A stretch of DNA of 42,246 nucleotides from positions 1 through 42,246 of the IMG/VR virus record IMGVR_UViG_3300028030_000029; one strand, given 5' to 3'. Shown here piece by piece: positions 5,153-42,246 of this stretch; the first letter of the stretch is position 1; every line of letters begins with the position of its first letter. This stretch comes from a virus. Under the pieces are notes generated by a model. It was not told the DNA's origin. It did no database searches and was given only the letters and a program-made list of their open reading frames with translations. A program made the translations under genes and the position numbers.

Positions 5153-5177
5153 AAATCTGATCTATAAATTATCTGAT

Positions 5178-5210
5178 TTAATCTATATTTAAGATTAAAT
5201 TAGATATAAT
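5178..5210 (+). promoter_or_regulatory. Promoter with AATCT dyad, accessory operon
   Basis: A -10 box TATAAT (5205-5210) preceded by a 21-bp dyad (5178-5198: TTAATCT, 6-bp spacer, AAGATTAA) with a 6-bp gap. The arrangement is the same as at 16271 and in the 41562-41859 array. It would drive the operon from 5254 to about 9562. Confidence 0.8.
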
Positions 5211-5253: not shown

Positions 5254-5607
5254 ATGAGAACTGATTGTCAAACATATCAAGTAATACCAGGTGAGCCACA
5301 ATACGGCAGGGTTAGAGAGTGTACATACACGCTCGACAGAGATGACATTGTGGAGGCCATAGCCGACCAGCTCATTGAGGACATAGAAACGCCTCTGAAC
5401 TATGAGCTTACTGTAGGAGATGTTACATTCACTTTGGGTGACTATCTCACCAAGGAGCAGTATCACCACATTCAGGATGTAGTTACTCAAACACTGCTTG
5501 ACGATGACTACTGCACTGGCAAGCACACACTTTTAGTGTATCAGTTAGTAGATGAGGTGGTAGACCCTGACCCTACACAAGAGTATACAACAGAAACTTA
5601 CATATAA
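5254..5607 (+). CDS. Hypothetical protein, first gene of accessory operon
   Basis: A 117-residue acidic protein with CAAGGAG upstream and a promoter 44 bases before the ATG. I do not recognise it. It reads as a mixed alpha/beta protein with many Asp and Glu (for example DDIVEAIADQLIEDIETP and the tail DEVVDPDPTQ). No signal peptide, membrane segment or cysteine cluster is seen. Being the first gene behind a strong-looking promoter, it is likely well expressed early. Strong negative charge in a small early protein is compatible with a DNA-mimic or inhibitor role, but this is speculation. Confidence 0.85.
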   Translation: MRTDCQTYQVIPGEPQYGRVRECTYTLDRDDIVEAIADQLIEDIETPLNYELTVGDVTFTLGDYLTKEQYHHIQDVVTQTLLDDDYCTGKHTLLVYQLVDEVVDPDPTQEYTTETYI

Positions 5608-5613
5608 GGGGAA

Positions 5614-6420
5614 ATGGTGGATTATGAAATTAAACCAGGAGCAGACCTTAGAGGGGCAAACCTTGAGGGAGCAGACCTTAGAAAGGCAGACCTTAGAGGT
5701 GCAGACCTTGGAGAGGCATACCTTGAGGGTGCAAACCTTGAGGGTGCAAATCTTGAGGGCACAAACCTTAGAGATGCATACCTTAAAGAGGCCAACCTTA
5801 GTGAGGTGAACCTTGTGGGAGCTAACCTTAGGGATGCTATCCTTAGAGTTGCTAGCCTTAGAGATGCAGACCTTGAGGGTGCAAACCTTAGAGATGCAAA
5901 TCTTAAATATGCCAACCTTAGGGGTGCAAACATTAGAGGTGCAGGCCTTATAGGTGTAAACTTTAGAGGCGCTAACCTTGAGGGCGCCAACCTTAGAAGT
6001 GCAAACATTAGAGGTGCAGGCCTTAGAGGTGTAAACTTTAGAGGCGCTAACCTTGAGGGTGCAAACCTTAGAGATGTCAACCTTGAGGGTGCAAACCTTA
6101 GAGATGCAAATCTTGTAGGTGCGAACCTTGGAGGTGCTGATATTATAGGTGCCGATTTTACGAACGCAAACCTTAAAAATTTAATTCTTTCAAAGGCGGA
6201 CTTATCTCGTTCTAATATATTTACATTTAGAGTAGGTGAGTATACTAGATTATCTTTCACCTATCTATATGAAGGTGTTCAATATTATCAGATAGGATGC
6301 TTCAACGGTATCTACGAAGAGGCTATGGTAAAGATTAGAGACAAGTACGGTAGCAATAGTGCATATGAGAGAGTAGTTACAGCTTATAAAGGTATATTTG
6401 ACGATACAAGGAAAAAATGA
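5614..6420 (+). CDS. Pentapeptide-repeat protein with IGC-type C-terminal domain (1)
   Basis: A 268-residue protein. Residues about 10-195 are some 36 consecutive pentapeptide repeats of the A(D/N)LxG form, which fold as a right-handed quadrilateral beta-helix. Residues about 205-268 form a separate domain (FRVGEYTRLSFTYLYEGVQYYQIGCFNG...), shared with the protein at 6799. Pentapeptide proteins such as Qnr and MfpA mimic duplex DNA and bind gyrase; phage members are mostly uncharacterised. It follows the 5254 gene by six bases; the start ATG has an AAGGGG only a few bases away, and a GTG one codon later is an alternative. The 15-base DNA periodicity creates long mirror frames on the other strand that I regard as artefacts. 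Function (DNA mimic, anti-restriction or topoisomerase modulation) is inference. Confidence 0.9.
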   Translation: MVDYEIKPGADLRGANLEGADLRKADLRGADLGEAYLEGANLEGANLEGTNLRDAYLKEANLSEVNLVGANLRDAILRVASLRDADLEGANLRDANLKYANLRGANIRGAGLIGVNFRGANLEGANLRSANIRGAGLRGVNFRGANLEGANLRDVNLEGANLRDANLVGANLGGADIIGADFTNANLKNLILSKADLSRSNIFTFRVGEYTRLSFTYLYEGVQYYQIGCFNGIYEEAMVKIRDKYGSNSAYERVVTAYKGIFDDTRKK

Positions 6421-6798: not shown

Positions 6799-7425
6799 AT
6801 GATAGTGAATGGGTATAAAATAAAGAATAAATCCAATCTAAAAGAGGCAGGTTTGGCAGGTGTCAATCTAAAAGAGGCGGATTTGGCAGGTGCCAATCTA
6901 ACATATGCAGATCTTAGTCAAGCTAATCTTACAAAAGCTAACCTTGAAAAAGCTATTATGCAAAATACTAACCTTGAAAAAGCTATTATGCGAGATGCTA
7001 ACCTTAAAAAAGCTAGTATGCATAATGTTAATCTTGTAAAAGCTATTCTTGTAGGAGCAGAGCTTGAAGGCGCCGATCTAAGAGGGGCTAACTTAGCAAA
7101 AGCAAGTATGTTAATGGCTAATCTAAGAGGAGCTGATCTTAGAGAAGTTGATTTCGAAGGTGCAATGCTCGAATTTGCGGATTTAACAGGAGCCAATCTG
7201 AAAGGTGCTAATCTTGAAGGAGCTAATTTGCATGGTACTTGCATTAGAACTTTTAGAGCGGGCCAGTACAATAGGTTGTCATTTACCTATATGTATGAAG
7301 GCATTCAATACTATCAGATAGGTTGTTTCAATGGAACCTACGATGAAGCAATTGCAGAGATTAGAAAGGAGTATTGGCCTAATAGCAAATACGAGAAACT
7401 GATCAAAATATATAAGGAGGATTAG
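6799..7425 (+). CDS. Pentapeptide-repeat protein with IGC-type C-terminal domain (2)
   Basis: A 208-residue paralogue of the protein at 5614, with AAGGAG upstream. About 26 pentapeptide repeats (A(N/D)Lxx, several with KAIM or KASM) occupy residues 15-145. The C-terminal domain (TFRAGQYNRLSFTYMYEGIQYYQIGCFNG...) is about two-thirds identical to that of the first copy. The repeats differ more than the C-terminal domain, so the C-terminal domain is under stronger constraint and probably carries the specific function or partner contact, with the beta-helix as a charged scaffold. Two diverged copies in one operon suggest two targets, a heterodimer, or escape from host resistance. These are inferences. 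Confidence 0.9.
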   Translation: MIVNGYKIKNKSNLKEAGLAGVNLKEADLAGANLTYADLSQANLTKANLEKAIMQNTNLEKAIMRDANLKKASMHNVNLVKAILVGAELEGADLRGANLAKASMLMANLRGADLREVDFEGAMLEFADLTGANLKGANLEGANLHGTCIRTFRAGQYNRLSFTYMYEGIQYYQIGCFNGTYDEAIAEIRKEYWPNSKYEKLIKIYKED

Positions 7426-9570: not shown

Positions 9571-10917
9571 ATGATCAAATTAACCGATGACCAAAAGAGG
9601 GCCATCAAGGTAGTAGACTCTTTCCTGAAAGACCCAAATGCCTTTGACTGCTTCATAAGTGGACAGGCAGGAGTAGGCAAGACCACTCTACTAAACTATC
9701 TGGTTCAGAAGCTTATGGAGAAAGAAATACCATATGTAGTATGTGCCTACACTCACAAGGCTAAGAAGGTCCTTGAGAGCAAGTTGCCTAAGGGTGCCGA
9801 TGTACGAACACTTCATTCATTCCTTAGGAAGCGGCCAGGTATCAACGAGAACGCCAAGACCATCCATAAGCTCCAAACTACTACTCAGTTCGGACATCCT
9901 CAGCAGGTCAAACTTCTTATAGTAGATGAGTACTCGATGGTAGGTGAGAGTGACGTTATGAGCATAGGAGAGCTCCAGGACCCAGACTATCAAGGTGTGC
10001 CAGAGATGAAGGTGCTATATGTAGGAGATTACAGACAGTTGGCTCCAGTAGGACAAACGTTCACCCTTGATCCACACAGAGCAGAGTATTCATATACACT
10101 AACAGAGGTTCAGAGGCAATCGGCAGGACCTCTTCTCTCCACCATATGTGAAGTAGTGGACATGATTGATGGCAAGAAACCTATCGGTTATCTCGAGCCT
10201 AATGCAGAGTTTCATAGAGATATCGATATACCAACACATATAGCTGACAACAAGCCCAAAGACTTCGCTGTACTTGCCTATACAAATAAGCGAGTTCAAG
10301 AGCTTAATAGCGCAATACATGATGTAGTGGGGTCTACTGACCTTAGATGGTCACCCACACTTAGAGCTGAGTTACAGGTAGGTCTACAATATGAGCCATA
10401 TGAGGTAGCCGCTATTTGGATACATTCAGGTATTCTTGAGCTTGAGTCTAAGTATAGGACGCTTGAGCATATTCAGAAGATATCTAAAGACTATAGCATA
10501 CAATTTGGAGAGTTCGTAAATCTGACTGAAGATACTACTCAAACAATAGCCTATATATTTGGGCATTACGAATACAAGCTCGCATTGGAGAAGCTAGCAC
10601 AAGAAGCCACCAGAGCCAATGAGGCTATCAACCATCGTAGTCCCAAGAAGTACTGCTTAGAGAATCCTCATTGTAAAGAATGCAGGAGGAGAGCCAAGGC
10701 ATGGAGGGATTATCTGACGGTTAAAGAGTGCGTGATGTGCGTTGATTATCCTTATGCTCAGACTATTCACAAGAGTCAAGGCAGTACCTTTAAGAATGTC
10801 TATATTGACAATGAAGACTTGAAACTACTGCTCAAGACTGGCAGGACTGAAACATATTTGAAGCTTTTGTATGTAGGAATCAGTAGAGCTTCAAATCAGG
10901 TATTTATGAATTCATAA
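9571..10917 (+). CDS. SF1B DNA helicase (Dda/RecD-like)
   Basis: A 448-residue helicase. Motifs in order: Walker A GQAGVGKTT (K37), motif Ia AYTHKAKKVL, motif II LLIVDEYSMV, motif III VGDYRQLAPVG, motif V QTIHKSQGSTF and motif VI LYVGISRAS. These define the 5'-to-3' Dda/RecD2 group that clears proteins from DNA and supports phage fork restart and recombination. Between motifs IV and V lies an unusual cysteine cluster (C362, C368, C371, C387, C390) that could bind zinc or an iron-sulfur centre. TAGGAG precedes the ATG. It works with the polymerase and SSB encoded just downstream. Confidence 0.9.
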   Translation: MIKLTDDQKRAIKVVDSFLKDPNAFDCFISGQAGVGKTTLLNYLVQKLMEKEIPYVVCAYTHKAKKVLESKLPKGADVRTLHSFLRKRPGINENAKTIHKLQTTTQFGHPQQVKLLIVDEYSMVGESDVMSIGELQDPDYQGVPEMKVLYVGDYRQLAPVGQTFTLDPHRAEYSYTLTEVQRQSAGPLLSTICEVVDMIDGKKPIGYLEPNAEFHRDIDIPTHIADNKPKDFAVLAYTNKRVQELNSAIHDVVGSTDLRWSPTLRAELQVGLQYEPYEVAAIWIHSGILELESKYRTLEHIQKISKDYSIQFGEFVNLTEDTTQTIAYIFGHYEYKLALEKLAQEATRANEAINHRSPKKYCLENPHCKECRRRAKAWRDYLTVKECVMCVDYPYAQTIHKSQGSTFKNVYIDNEDLKLLLKTGRTETYLKLLYVGISRASNQVFMNS

Positions 10918-11013
10918 TCATATAGAATCGTCTATGATCGTCCAAAAATCATTATAGATATATAGAGATAGGGATAGGATAAATCATCTCAAAATTGATA
11001 TATAGAAATCGAT

Positions 11014-11073
11014 ATAGAGATAGAAATAGAGATAGAAATAGAGATAGAAATAGAGATAGAAATAGAGATAGAA
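11014..11073. repeat. 12-bp tandem repeat, 5 copies
   Basis: Five perfect copies of ATAGAGATAGAA (11014, 11026, 11038, 11050 and 11062), all purine-rich on the plus strand, ending 10 bp before the promoter dyad at 11084. Could be iterons, an upstream activator or protein-loading site, or a neutral slippage product. Confidence 0.95.
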
Positions 11074-11083
11074 ATTTAATCGA

Positions 11084-11115
11084 TTAATCTAATTTTAAGA
11101 TTAATTTGATATAAT
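11084..11115 (+). promoter_or_regulatory. Promoter with AATCT dyad upstream of the 11158 gene
   Basis: A -10 box TATAAT (11110-11115) preceded by the 21-bp dyad TTAATCT, 6 bp, AAGATTAA (11084-11104) with a 5-bp gap. It follows the 12-bp tandem repeats directly and would drive the gene at 11158 and possibly the SSB gene. Confidence 0.8.
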
Positions 11116-11157: not shown

Positions 11158-11622
11158 ATGACTAAAAAAGAACTTTATGCAGAAGTATCTGCGATTTTGG
11201 AGAAACACGGCGTAGAAGGTGAAGCTAAGGAGCAACTGCTCGCATTGGTAGAGCCAAAAAGAGGCGGACAGAGATTCGATATCGATGAGGTAGCTTGCCT
11301 TGATGAGAATGGCACTGTAACTCATATCCTTGACAGCGTACTGCATATTTGGGTACCAGTATACGATGAAGATGGTGAGCCTAACTTCTATGAGAAGCCA
11401 GACACTGAGCTCGGATGGAGCAGATTCTCTCGTACTGCTGAGAAGCTGAGAAAAGAAGCTGAAAAGACATTCAAGGCTACTAAAGAGGGTGTTCTTCAAG
11501 ACCTCCTTGCTGGTGAGATTGACAATGCTCAAGCGGCTGCGATTCTCGAAGAGGCGGAAGCTGCAAGAAAGTCACTCGAAGCACCAGAAGGTTTCGGTAC
11601 CACTGAAAAGCCTTGTGCTTAA
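11158..11622 (+). CDS. Protein of unknown function, paralogue of the gene at 31
   Basis: A 154-residue acidic protein with CAGGAG upstream and its own dyad promoter. It aligns with the gene at 31: N-terminal helices, an EPKRGG hinge at residues 36-41, and a central GWSRFSRTAEKLRKEAEK. A long charged C-terminal helix follows (residues 95-150, rich in Glu and Ala). It immediately precedes the SSB-like gene and is followed by a UUCG-loop hairpin. No catalytic motif is visible. Because the two copies each lie first or near-first behind a dyad promoter, they may perform the same early task at different times. Confidence 0.85.
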   Translation: MTKKELYAEVSAILEKHGVEGEAKEQLLALVEPKRGGQRFDIDEVACLDENGTVTHILDSVLHIWVPVYDEDGEPNFYEKPDTELGWSRFSRTAEKLRKEAEKTFKATKEGVLQDLLAGEIDNAQAAAILEEAEAARKSLEAPEGFGTTEKPCA

Positions 11623-16262: not shown

Positions 16263-16270
16263 AAAATTAT

Positions 16271-16303
16271 TTAATCTTATTTTAAGATTAAATATGATAT
16301 AAT
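16271..16303 (+). promoter_or_regulatory. Promoter with perfect dyad, HTH-regulator operon
   Basis: This is the only perfect copy of the dyad: arm TTAATCTTA, 3-bp TTT centre and the complementary arm (16271-16291), then 6 bp and -10 TATAAT (16298-16303). It drives the gene at 16322 and the HTH protein at 16626. If that protein binds this dyad, this is an autoregulatory loop. Confidence 0.85.
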
Positions 16304-16321: not shown

Positions 16322-16624
16322 ATGAAAACAGAAGAATTGTTAGAAGAAAGAGGTAGTAGGTACGGCAGTTTTGATTCACAAGCGAGGATTGTGCAAGCAT
16401 TGAAAACTACTATGATGGAAGGTAAGAATTGGGACAAACTTAGACCTTACCAGAAAGAAGCTCTGGAGATGATTCAGCACAAGATTGGCCGTATGTTGAA
16501 CGGGGATCCTATGTATGAGGATAATGTAGAGGACATCTTAGGATATGCCAAGCTAATGCTTGACCAGATGAAGATTGACAATGAATTGGTAAAACAACCA
16601 AAACTACCAGGTATGGAGGTGTGA
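16322..16624 (+). CDS. Phage protein of the DUF6378-like family
   Basis: A 100-residue protein with AAAAAGGA upstream. Its pattern (ERGSRYGSFDSQARIVQALKTTM, then EALEMIQHKIGRMLNGDPMYEDNVEDILGYAKLM) is typical of a small helical phage family widely seen near replication genes. The conserved E..K..R...D and D..GYA residues resemble all-alpha nucleotide pyrophosphohydrolase (MazG-like) folds. A nucleotide-related role is possible but unproven. The family name is from memory of the pattern, not from a search. Confidence 0.85.
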   Translation: MKTEELLEERGSRYGSFDSQARIVQALKTTMMEGKNWDKLRPYQKEALEMIQHKIGRMLNGDPMYEDNVEDILGYAKLMLDQMKIDNELVKQPKLPGMEV

Positions 16625-16625
16625 T

Positions 16626-16871
16626 ATGTTAATAAGTGAAGCAATAGCGAAAATCAAAGAACAACTTAAGCTGAAGGACCAATATGAAGTGGCTAGAACT
16701 TTAGGCATTTCACAAGCGACTGTGTCTAACTATATGAAAGGTAAATCATATCCTACCCTTTCAGTAGCCACCAAAATCTATGGAGAGTATGGGTATAGGG
16801 TAGAGCCATTTACAGAGAGCGCACTCAAAAAAGAGTGGGAGTTTTACACTAAGCATGGATTGAATAAGTAG
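16626..16871 (+). CDS. Cro/CI-type HTH regulator
   Basis: An 81-residue protein with GGAGG upstream. Residues 19-51 (YEVARTLGISQATVSNYMKGKSYPTLSVATKI) are a classic XRE/Cro helix-turn-helix with the recognition helix near QATVSNYMKG. The rest is a short C-terminal extension (EYGYRVEPFTESALKKEWEFYTKHG). It is in the operon behind the perfect AATCTTA dyad, so it is the first candidate to bind all these dyads. The dyad spacing (centres about 12 bp apart) is compatible with a small Cro-like dimer. With no lysogeny genes present, a role in timing of lytic transcription is more likely than in lysogeny. Confidence 0.88.
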   Translation: MLISEAIAKIKEQLKLKDQYEVARTLGISQATVSNYMKGKSYPTLSVATKIYGEYGYRVEPFTESALKKEWEFYTKHGLNK

Positions 16872-38884: not shown

Positions 38885-38911
38885 ATTATCATATCATCAT
38901 AAAGATTAAAG
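38885..38911 (-). promoter_or_regulatory. Probable promoter of the virion operon
   Basis: On the minus strand the sequence TTTAATCTTTATGATGATATGATAATGG holds -10-like TATGAT (38888-38893) and GATAAT (38885-38890). One AATCTT half-site (38903-38908) lies upstream, but the symmetric second half is missing. This is the only obvious promoter ahead of the 18-kb leftward operon. Confidence 0.45.
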
Positions 38912-38921
38912 TTTTATTAAA

Positions 38922-38945
38922 TTTTAAGAGTTTTTTAGATATAAT
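38922..38945 (+). promoter_or_regulatory. Terminase promoter with a half-site only
   Basis: TATAAT (38940-38945) with TTTTAAGA (38922-38929) at exactly the same spacing as in the dyad promoters (18 bp from TTTTAAG to TATAAT). The left arm AATCTT is replaced by unrelated sequence. A dimeric regulator would bind poorly, so timing should differ from the early operons. Confidence 0.65.
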
Positions 38946-39486: not shown

Positions 39487-41127
39487 ATGAGCTGGTATAT
39501 GCCTAACATAACCGAAGAACAATTCGATGAAATCTATGCAGGTACACCTGTGATAGCTGAGAAACATCTATGGCAGAATGAACCTGAAAGTGATGAGGAC
39601 GCTTTGATTAACTACTACCCTAGTAAACTGTGGAGATTGACTAGTGGTATTTATAAAATCGAGAGTAAAGAAGGTGATTTGATACCTTTTGCGCCTAACT
39701 TCGCCCAGCATTATGTATATGCTCACTATTTAAAACACCCTAGAATGATTATTCTGAAGAGTAGACAGCAGGGAATATCTACCTTCTGGCTAATGTTCTT
39801 CTTCGATGAGGCTTTAGTGCAGGATAATATGAAGTTCGGTCTAATGGCTCAGGGTTTGAAGGAAGCCAAGACACTGAAGGAAAGGATAGTACGTGCATGG
39901 GAACATTTTCCCACAGAGCTAAAAGAATTCCTGGGCATTGGCGTTACTAAGCAAAACCACGATGAATTTAGCCTTACTAATGACAGTAAGATTTATATTG
40001 CCACCTCATTTCGTTCTGGTACCCTACAAGGGCTACACATATCTGAGTTCGGTATGATTGCCGCTAAGACTCCTGAGAAGGCTAAAGAAACTAAAACAGG
40101 GTCGATGCAGGCCATTAGAGGAGGCCTGCCGGTGATATTAGAGAGTACCGCGATGGGTAGGTCGAACATGTTCTATGATGAATGGATGAAAGCCGTGGGG
40201 CATACTGGCAACTTGGCTCCTAAAGATTTCCAGCCAGTATTCCTATCGTGGGCTGACGATCCCGATTGTAGAATTGACATACCTCAGATTATTGATTCTG
40301 AGGCTGAAACCTACTTCAAAGAAGGTTGTATAGAATACGAACTATATACAGGTAAGAAGCTTGAGTTAAGCAATGAGCAGAAATGGTGGTGGATTGCTCA
40401 ACTTAGAGAGTTCAATGGCGATAGAGAAATGATGGGACAAGAATATCCACTTTTTCCTGAGGAAGCATTTATGGCCACTAAAGACGGGTCTTACTGGTCA
40501 AAGCTATATAGAGCCGAAGTAGTAGCTAGAGGTCGATTGGTTGAGGGATTGTATGAGGCTAATCTGCCGGTTGATGTTGCTGTCGATTTGGGCATGAATG
40601 ATATGATGGTGTTAGTATTCTTTCAGACTTTTAATAATGAGCTGCGGGTTATTGACGAGTATCATAATAGCGGAGAAGGGATACTACACTACGTGAACAA
40701 AATGAGAGAGAAAGGCTATAAGTATAGGTCAGTCTACCTGCCGCATGACGCTGTTGTAAAAGAGCTAGGTACTGGTAAGAGTCGATATAGCATCTTTAGG
40801 GAAATGGGAGTACCTGTGAGGTTACTACCTAGAACTAGGAACGTGCAGAATGATATAGAACTTGTCAGAAAAGCTATACCTTATATGTGGTTCGATGCCG
40901 CTAAAACTAAATACCTACAGACAGCTATGGATGCTTATTCTCGTGAATGGGACGATAGATTAGGTGTTTTCAAAGATAGGCCACTACACAACGAATGGAG
41001 TCACCCTGCTGATGCCATAAGGTACATGGTGGTAGCTGCATATCACAAGATAAGACCTAAGGGTAGAGTGGATGAAGCCGTGATGAAGCGTAAACTAACT
41101 AATGTGGTCGATGGTCTAGCCTTGTAG
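39487..41127 (+). CDS. terL: Terminase large subunit
   Basis: A 546-residue packaging motor and nuclease. ATPase: KSRQQGIS (residues 91-98, the Walker A variant of terminases) and GLHISEFGMIA as Walker B/catalytic region. RNase H-like nuclease: VAVDLGMNDMMVLVFF (first Asp), a middle acid in VYLPHDAVVKE, and HPADAIRYMV (last Asp). It cuts concatemers and pumps DNA through the portal. It is the last gene of the rightward packaging pair and is followed by the 760-bp non-coding control region. Confidence 0.95.
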   Translation: MSWYMPNITEEQFDEIYAGTPVIAEKHLWQNEPESDEDALINYYPSKLWRLTSGIYKIESKEGDLIPFAPNFAQHYVYAHYLKHPRMIILKSRQQGISTFWLMFFFDEALVQDNMKFGLMAQGLKEAKTLKERIVRAWEHFPTELKEFLGIGVTKQNHDEFSLTNDSKIYIATSFRSGTLQGLHISEFGMIAAKTPEKAKETKTGSMQAIRGGLPVILESTAMGRSNMFYDEWMKAVGHTGNLAPKDFQPVFLSWADDPDCRIDIPQIIDSEAETYFKEGCIEYELYTGKKLELSNEQKWWWIAQLREFNGDREMMGQEYPLFPEEAFMATKDGSYWSKLYRAEVVARGRLVEGLYEANLPVDVAVDLGMNDMMVLVFFQTFNNELRVIDEYHNSGEGILHYVNKMREKGYKYRSVYLPHDAVVKELGTGKSRYSIFREMGVPVRLLPRTRNVQNDIELVRKAIPYMWFDAAKTKYLQTAMDAYSREWDDRLGVFKDRPLHNEWSHPADAIRYMVVAAYHKIRPKGRVDEAVMKRKLTNVVDGLAL

Positions 41128-41131
41128 GGTG

Positions 41132-41287
41132 CCTGTGACTCCCAGATACTTATTAGATTACATAATTTAATAATACCTAAAATTTCTGCGAGTGCACAAA
41201 GTGGTGTTAACCTGTGACTTCTAGATACTTATTAGATTACATAATTTAATAATACCTAAAATTTCTGCGAGTGCACAAAGTGGTGTT
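41132..41287. repeat. 77-bp tandem direct repeat
   Basis: The copies at 41132-41208 and 41211-41287 are identical except at two positions near the start (CCC against TCT before AGATAC). Each contains ATTAGATTACATAATTTAAT and ends GAGTGCACAAAGTGGTGTT. The repeat begins five bases after the terminase stop codon. It could be a packaging, recombination or regulatory site. Confidence 0.95.
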
Positions 41288-41497
41288 GGCCGCCATAGCC
41301 TCGCCTTATATTGAACATCAACCCCTCCCTCTTATACTCATAGATAATCACACCTAACCACTGCCAAACACATAATGATACCAATTATCATAAATGATTG
41401 TCACCAAGATTAATTGATAATAATCATTATAATATCCCTATTAATTCAATTTATTTAAATTTAAGAATCTATTAACCACTCATTAACCATACCATGG

Positions 41498-41503
41498 TAT
41501 AAT
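41498..41503 (+). promoter_or_regulatory. Early promoter P1 (-10 box)
   Basis: TATAAT preceded by TGG (extended -10). The AATCTTA dyad is absent here; the upstream sequence is ACCATACCATGG. The first palindrome CCAGG-AAC-CCTGG lies 16 bp downstream. Confidence 0.7.
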
Positions 41504-41561
41504 ATATTTAGAAAGAGGCCAGGAACCCTGGATGATTTCAAGAATTCATAAATTATCTCAT

Positions 41562-41594
41562 TTAATCTTATTTTAAGATGAATGAGGCTATAAT
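41562..41594 (+). promoter_or_regulatory. Early promoter P2
   Basis: Dyad TTAATCTTA-TTT-TAAGATGAA (41562-41582), a 6-bp gap and -10 TATAAT (41589-41594). Confidence 0.8.
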
Positions 41595-41652
41595 ATATTT
41601 AGAAAGAGGCCAGGAACCCTGGATGATTTCTAGAATTCATAAATTATCTCAT

Positions 41653-41685
41653 TTAATCTTATTTTAAGATAAATGATGATACAAT
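41653..41685 (+). promoter_or_regulatory. Early promoter P3
   Basis: Dyad TTAATCTTA-TTT-TAAGATAAA (41653-41673), a 6-bp gap and -10 TACAAT (41680-41685). Confidence 0.75.
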
Positions 41686-41736
41686 ATGACTAGAAATCGA
41701 CCAGGAACCCCTGGGTGATTTCATAAATTATTTCAT

Positions 41737-41769
41737 TTAATCTTATTTTAAGATAAATGATGGTACAGT
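41737..41769 (+). promoter_or_regulatory. Early promoter P4
   Basis: The same dyad (41737-41757), a 6-bp gap and a weaker -10 TACAGT (41764-41769) with TGG before it. The palindrome downstream extends to ACCAGG-AAC-CCTGGT. Confidence 0.65.
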
Positions 41770-41826
41770 ATGATTAGAAATCGACCAGGAACCCTGGTGA
41801 TTTCAAGAATTCATAAATTATCTCAT

Positions 41827-41859
41827 TTAATCTTATTTTAAGATAAATGATGATACAAT
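41827..41859 (+). promoter_or_regulatory. Early promoter P5
   Basis: The same dyad (41827-41847), a 6-bp gap and -10 TACAAT (41854-41859). No CCAGG palindrome follows; AAGGAG and the ATG at 41888 come next. Confidence 0.75.
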
Positions 41860-41887
41860 ATGATATACTAAAAATAAGGAGTGACCT

Positions 41888-42076
41888 ATGACACCACGAG
41901 ATTATATGAGAAAATTAACTGCCCTTTCTTGGGATATCCCAAGAGATAAACCTAAATTATTCTCTGAATATGACCGATTAAATGGGATTTTAGAGGATGT
42001 GATAGAGTATGGCGAGGAATCAAGATTCAAATATTTTAAGAAAGAATTCGAGAAATTCAAAGAGGCCCTGAAATAA
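41888..42076 (+). CDS. First early gene, small hypothetical protein
   Basis: A 62-residue basic protein (MTPRDYMRKLTALSWDIPRDKPKLFSEYDRLNGILEDVIEYGEESRFKYFKKEFEKFKEALK) with AAGGAG upstream, sitting directly behind five stacked promoters. It is helical and charged. This is the position of early host-takeover proteins in many virulent phages, and its small size fits an inhibitor or modifier of a host target. No family is recognised. Confidence 0.85.
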   Translation: MTPRDYMRKLTALSWDIPRDKPKLFSEYDRLNGILEDVIEYGEESRFKYFKKEFEKFKEALK

Positions 42077-42119: not shown

Positions 42120-42246
42120 CCTAAATCTATCTATTTAAAGGAATCAATTATGACCAAAAAAGAAATTTGGACTAAGGTATCGGAAATCGCGGCTAACCAC
42201 AATCTTTCAGAGGTGGTTATTAAAGAATTGGCAGAGATTCTTGAAC
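42120..42246. repeat. 127-bp terminal direct repeat, right copy
   Basis: Identical to 1-127; see the left copy. The unique genome is therefore 42,119 bp. Confidence 0.95.
42150..42246 (+). CDS. Partial copy of the gene at 31
   Basis: The start of the gene at 31-516 is repeated here because the window runs past the circle junction. It is cut off by the end of the window and is not a separate gene. It shows that the early promoter array at 41498-41859 reads into that gene. Confidence 0.95.
   Translation, partial: MTKKEIWTKVSEIAANHNLSEVVIKELAEILE

Follow-up and report, generated by a model that had tools for sequence, protein, structure and literature searches.

A tandem array of five putative host-read early promoters with predicted 5' hairpins and palindromic upstream elements in a phage genome

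Our analysis of a 42,246-nucleotide viral genome (the whole of IMG/VR record IMGVR_UViG_3300028030_000029, here called the window) points to five tandem early promoters read by the host, combined with 5' hairpins and a palindromic TTTAAGA element, a model that as a whole we consider fairly probable. The host's own housekeeping RNA polymerase would read the five stacked promoters by recognizing an extended -10 box and, one to two turns of the helix further upstream, a TTTAAGA element that would replace the -35 box. Over their first ~30 nt the transcripts from the first four promoters (P1-P4) would form a hairpin tipped by CCAGG-AAC-CCTGG, and the leader from the fifth (P5) would be short and free of hairpins, leading straight into the gene. 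Having several promoters would increase early initiation and the hairpins would guard the messages against decay that depends on the 5' end; a strong and durable early burst is the likely outcome of the stack. On early and middle promoters TTTAAGA would have been made palindromic, such that a dimeric phage repressor could occupy the -35/spacer region and, as it accumulates, would shut the palindromic promoters. The best candidate for this repressor is an 81-aa HTH_3 protein whose gene follows the most perfect of the palindromes.

The components are of known kinds, tandem early promoters among them, and their combination in one amplified unit is new. To our knowledge, little has been described of how phages of environmental Campylobacterota control transcription. 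If Campylobacterota are indeed the host, the array offers ready-made test promoters for a phylum with -35-less promoters; it would make genomes of such phages easier to read and would show in what way a regulator can work through an upstream element about whose role there is still debate. The hairpins form a natural series for testing 5' mRNA protection, with four stems and one promoter without.

The five -10 boxes (TATAAT at 41498 and 41589, TACAAT at 41680 and 41854, TACAGT at 41764) lie 91, 91, 84 and 90 bp apart, and sequence and repeat searches bear out the first-pass annotation, made from the sequence alone, which had placed them in an 84-91 bp repeat (Table 1). The repeat, of 91 bp and 4.1 copies, was confirmed by Tandem Repeats Finder and by a repeat search, and four of the five boxes carry the TGn of an extended -10. 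The AATCTTA-TTT-TAAGAT dyad (arms ATTTAATCTTA..TAAGATTAAAT) was found upstream of the last four boxes, at 41564, 41655, 41739 and 41829, as annotated. The palindrome said to follow each of the first four boxes is exact after boxes 1, 2 and 4 (41519, 41610 and 41785), whereas the copy at 41701 has a loop of four bases, CCAGG-AACC-CCTGG; no further full copy was found by sequence search of the genome outside the array. P1 has no AATCTTA dyad and may differ from the other promoters in its regulation. Upstream of it ATTAACCA occurs twice, 11 bp apart, and a perfect 12-bp palindrome, ATACCATGGTAT at 41490-41501, overlaps its -10.

Table 1 Features of the promoter array and of related elements in the window. 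Hairpins are predicted, and their z-scores vary with the folded length.
Feature	Position	Strand	Details
Tandem repeat holding the five-promoter array	41494..41861	+	Tandem Repeats Finder: 4.1 copies of 84-91 bp, score 506, 86% matches; repeat family D1
Promoter P1	41490..41503	+	extended -10 TGG-TATAAT; without AATCTTA dyad
Promoter P2	41558..41594	+	dyad core 41564-41579; TTTAAGA 41572-41578; -10 TATAAT 41589-41594; exact TTTAAGAN{7,8}GNTATAAT match
Promoter P3	41649..41685	+	dyad core 41655-41670; extended -10 TGA-TACAAT 41680-41685
Promoter P4	41733..41769	+	dyad core 41739-41754; extended -10 TGG-TACAGT 41764-41769
Promoter P5	41823..41859	+	dyad core 41829-41844; extended -10 TGA-TACAAT 41854-41859; leader without hairpin
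P1 transcript 5'-terminal hairpin	41511..41539	+	outer stem GAAA..TTTC; tip 41519-41531 CCAGG-AAC-CCTGG; -9.9 kcal/mol, z -2.6
P2 transcript 5'-terminal hairpin	41600..41632	+	outer stem TAGAAA..TTTCTA; tip 41610-41622; -12.1 kcal/mol, z -3.1
P3 transcript 5'-terminal hairpin	41693..41722	+	outer stem GAAATC..GATTTC; tip 41701-41714 CCAGG-AACC-CCTGG; -16.2 kcal/mol, z -4.2
P4 transcript 5'-terminal hairpin	41777..41804	+	outer stem GAAATC..GATTTC; tip 41785-41797; -15.1 kcal/mol, z -5.2
First gene after the array	41888..42076	+	62 aa; without PHROGs or Pfam match
Single promoter, dyad and TATAAT, before gene 5254-5607	5174..5210	+	dyad at 5180; symmetry 9/11
Single promoter, dyad type, before gene 11158-11622	11080..11115	+	dyad at 11086; symmetry 9/11
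Single promoter, most perfect dyad, upstream of genes 16322-16624 and 16626-16871	16267..16303	+	dyad at 16273; symmetry 11/11
HTH_3 (Cro/CI-type) protein, candidate repressor	16626..16871	+	81 aa; PF01381 33.4 bits (cutoff 23)
Terminase-side promoter TTTAAGAGTTTTTTAGATATAAT	38923..38945	+	TTTAAGA grammar without dyad; overlaps Campylobacterota promoter match
Probable late promoter (TATGAT), towards 38837	38888..38916	-	without dyad; symmetry 5/11

The array follows the terminase gene (39487-41127) and precedes a series of early genes that opens with 41888-42076 and 31-516, so that several promoters of one direction precede early genes, as in a tandem early promoter array. A 127-bp terminal direct repeat (1-127 and 42120-42246) means that the genome end joins its start; it may be a product of assembling circular or terminally redundant genomes. 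The terminal direct repeat of a relative, G001, is likewise exactly 127 bp. The same grammar extends beyond the array: copies of the dyad with its -10 box, missed by the first-pass annotation, lie at 5180, 11086 and 16273, each before another gene. Those before 5254 and 16322 were recovered by DNA self-search and the one before 11158 by pattern scan. Just upstream of the promoter at 11110 lies a 12-bp tandem repeat, ATAGAGATAGAA, with 6.2 copies (11002-11075). Genes 31-516 and 11158-11622 are apparent paralogues by N-terminal similarity and both of early type, the latter with its own promoter of the dyad family; proteins similar to their products are found among the first early genes of G001 and of another relative, G003.

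The right arm of the dyad, TTTAAGA, begins 16-17 bp before the -10. No TTGACA-type -35 precedes the array boxes, which in this respect depart from the E. coli-type sigma70 class (TTGACA-17-TATAAT), and matches to E. coli-type promoters in the array region are at chance (8 found vs 6.7 expected). The pattern TTTAAGA-N7/8-GnTATAAT also precedes other units of the phage, terminase included. Its exact form, TTTAAGAN{7,8}GNTATAAT, has five copies in the phage, against none in shuffled sequence, and four in G001, with none in the reversed control of either, and is absent from six named distant relatives. Of 200 Campylobacterota genomes 119 carry it, a large excess over the reversed control, whereas in Pseudomonadota (5 of 150 genomes) and Bacteroidota (19 of 99) its matches do not rise above the control. 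Sixty of the Campylobacterota sites were fetched and are promoter-like, many lying ahead of tRNAs or of a ribosome-binding site and ATG. A scan of the phage and its relatives places an element containing AAGA before many units, structural-gene, terminase and late units included; its distance from the -10 is fixed, and a further half-element in inverted, direct or everted orientation often lies 11 bp upstream of it.

Sigma70 promoters of C. jejuni and H. pylori have an extended -10, no -35 box and a periodic upstream signal (PMC3656092, PMC3847290), with a period of 10-11 bp (PMC3656092, PMC3847290, PMC3824568). The phage promoters share the extended -10 and, in place of a -35, have an upstream element at a fixed distance with a period of ~11 bp, and TTTAAGA-N7/8-GnTATAAT is enriched in the phylum; they differ in that this element forms part of a larger inverted repeat, with 8-11 positions paired. 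Thus the right arm of each dyad is apparently, first of all, a core promoter element. We infer a Campylobacterota-like host and promoter type, promoter type being the one line of evidence used for the host. No CRISPR spacer to the phage turned up when 397 Campylobacterota genomes were searched twice at the DNA level, and a terminase search for a close prophage that would confirm the host returned one distant match only. A 33-base Campylobacterota match was considered as a CRISPR spacer and rejected, being the shared promoter: the terminase-side promoter and one in a Campylobacterota genome are identical in 33 of 34 columns, with one gap. Parabeggiatoa was rejected as host, its exact motif matches being copies of a repeat element and not promoters. 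In six Parabeggiatoa/Thiotrichaceae assemblies (L050, L054, L060, L061, L083, L084) the 21-base motif lies inside a dispersed repeat (GCCCTAGGTGAAACCTAGGGTAAGC...) that is unrelated to promoters as far as seen. Motif matches in Methanobrevibacter look coding.

With the predicted +1 set seven bases after the -10, the P1-P4 transcripts all start AGAAA, and folding models suggest that the CCAGG palindromes are most likely the tips of longer RNA hairpins, which the first-pass annotation had missed. It had offered the palindromes as either a second operator or a 5' RNA hairpin, and the hairpin is favored, with an outer stem that begins at +1/+2 and a spacing of parts that differs between units. Internal loops shrink from 4x4 via 2x2 to one base and tip loops number three or four bases, with both stems paired throughout, which favors RNA over a DNA site of fixed spacing. 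Folded from +1 to +34, P1-P4 all fall below the lowest of 60 bacterial 5' ends (-9.7); each is thus predicted to carry a stable stem-loop at its 5' end, as counted from the predicted +1. Rfam and tRNA scans gave no matches. A leader peptide, MISRIHKLSHLILF, after the palindromes was rejected: it is present in units 1 and 2 and broken in unit 3, and units 3 and 4 are without a Shine-Dalgarno sequence.

Unrelated hairpins occur at or near the +1 of early transcripts in relatives (for example at 10232 in relative G659, 14002 and 14091 in G001, and 43979 and 44258 in G003). Early leaders taken together average -8.3 kcal/mol, compared with -4.2 for other promoters of these phages, in a set whose sequences are not independent and where a few early assignments are by position only. 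A 5' UTR stem-loop stabilizes mRNA in H. pylori, raising its half-life (PMC4843948), and 5' stem-loops raise mRNA half-life in other bacteria such as E. coli, according to work cited in PMC3997798. Because of this precedent, protection of the early messages from 5'-end-dependent decay is, by analogy, the most likely role of the hairpins. Like those stabilizing elements, the phage stem-loops are at or near the message 5' end; they differ in being predicted only and in having four copies in one leader region, one per promoter.

The core palindrome ATCTTA-N1-3-TAAGAT occurs five times in the genome (0.05 expected) and recurs in G659, G660 and G001, there in intergenic DNA. We scored symmetry as paired positions out of 11, with the center fixed on the promoter element. 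Sixty bacterial promoters had a mean of 4.4 and a maximum of 8, whereas the array promoters scored 8, those at 5205 and 11110 scored 9, and that at 16298 scored 11; the terminase and late promoters scored 2 and 5. Thus the early and middle promoters of the phage are more palindromic than bacterial ones, and its terminase and late promoters are not. For the phage with G001, G659 and G660 against the bacterial promoters the difference gave p=9e-7, a value that overstates independence as the phage promoters are related to each other. G003 and other, more distant relatives have the promoters with little excess symmetry, and the palindromes are therefore not general. The promoter ahead of a terminase-side gene in G659 is also palindromic (10/11), so a restriction of palindromy to early and middle promoters fails across relatives.

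The first-pass annotation had read the dyads as operators. Their right arm is better explained as a promoter element, and what survives of the proposal is a possible added operator layer, because the sites are more symmetric than bacterial promoters and the palindrome is found again in the nearest relatives. As in Cro/CI-type operator-repressor systems, palindromic sites overlap promoters, and an operator overlay on the promoter element is likely in the phage's clade. The candidate repressor also scores 22.6 against Phage_CI_repr (cutoff 22), matches PHROG transcriptional regulators and has homologues in seven phages, including the phage itself; a single-sequence structure model was uninformative (pLDDT 52). 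Homologues in other phages also lie behind weakly symmetric promoters, which weakens the link between this protein and the palindromes, and its co-location with a dyad says little because most units of these phages carry such promoters. That it binds the dyads is possible but less likely than not. Tentatively, promoter, built-in operator and 5' RNA shield might together form a cassette amplified in tandem, with TTTAAGA made palindromic so that a repressor would compete for this same element with the host polymerase, which requires it, and with a stabilizing hairpin for each start, a joint reading that we hold to be possible rather than likely.

How much of the symmetry reflects regulation separates two alternatives. 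At one extreme, the dyads would be primarily repressor operators and the palindromes a second operator, added to ordinary sigma70 promoters. The dyad center at ~-29, where repressors commonly act, would suit this, as would the excess of symmetry over bacterial promoters, the AATCTTA-N-TAAGATT palindromes conserved in G659, G660 and G001, and the HTH_3 gene behind the best dyad. We consider it improbable nonetheless, as the terminase promoter and many Campylobacterota promoters have the right arm without the left, and the CCAGG palindrome differs in loop length from copy to copy and lies inside an outer stem that itself varies, which suits RNA better than a DNA operator. At the other extreme, there would be no operator at all, the dyads amounting to no more than the periodic upstream element of promoters of the host type, with incidental symmetry. 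The half-elements of relatives, 11 bp apart in any orientation, and the published promoter signal with its 10-11 bp period fit such an account, to which we give an appreciable but minor chance; it is opposed by a symmetry above that of the 60 bacterial promoters, the p-value being uncorrected for relatedness.

Two further alternatives concern the array as a whole. The repeats lie in an AT-rich non-coding stretch and could be iterons of a replication origin, instead of or besides promoters; this is very improbable, given units in fixed register with -10 boxes, single unit copies before other genes and a cumulative GC skew that turns near 39 kb and not at the array. It is also very improbable that the hairpins act between the stacked promoters as attenuators or intrinsic terminators. 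A pattern scan does flag one terminator-like site on the + strand and two on the - strand at the palindromes, but on the + strand the stem is followed by ATGATTTC, without a real T tract, and only the second copy is flagged there, its T run being broken; the stems also occupy +1 to +30 of their own transcripts.

Our preferred reading, of stacked early promoters with 5' hairpins, draws on relatives as well. In G001 (terminase ~52%), four promoters spaced 84, 89 and 89 bp occupy the equivalent place with a different sequence; G659 (terminase 75%) has two, 92 bp apart; G660 (terminase 68%) has one, with two palindromes in tandem; and G003 has a stack of three. Even the distant relative MW202744 has TTTACT-17-TATAAT promoters, two of them 94 bp apart. 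The first-pass annotation's placing of a stacked array before the early genes is thus supported, and its suggested search of related phages recovered the stacking, whereas the CCAGG palindromes are replaced by unrelated hairpins. The stack appears to be a recurrent design whose sequences turn over. An exact search of viral contigs with the dyad unit gave no match, nor did a primase search.

T7-like phages have the tandem early promoters A1, A2 and A3. The array resembles these as several host-polymerase promoters stacked ahead of the first early genes; it differs in having five, in a near-identical 84-91 bp repeat, without -35 boxes and with palindromic upstream elements, the first four each with its own 5' hairpin. 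Kafunavirus-type phage KF-1 (Edwardsiella) and its relatives Amaethon (Dickeya), PH1 (Pseudoalteromonas) and VPMS1 (Vibrio) have terminases 41-46% identical and, after the terminase, a non-coding stretch and then small early genes, but are without an exact TTTAAGA-type promoter.

Several minor features were seen alongside. Directly 3' of the terminase stop codon of the phage lies a 79-bp direct duplication (97%; 41132-41287), and unrelated repeats stand at the equivalent place in G001 (79 bp), G659, G660, G662, PH1 (58 bp, three copies), VPMS1 (67 bp), KF-1, MW202665 and Amaethon. The occurrence of repeats at this spot is conserved, and it may serve packaging or replication. Two pentapeptide-repeat proteins (5614-6420 and 6799-7425) are encoded among the early genes. 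Finally, G659 has a second array after its first early gene (L248, 10784-11060), with units of ~110-117 bp in which AATCTTAAAATAAGATT palindromes precede TATAAT boxes, plus large dyads.
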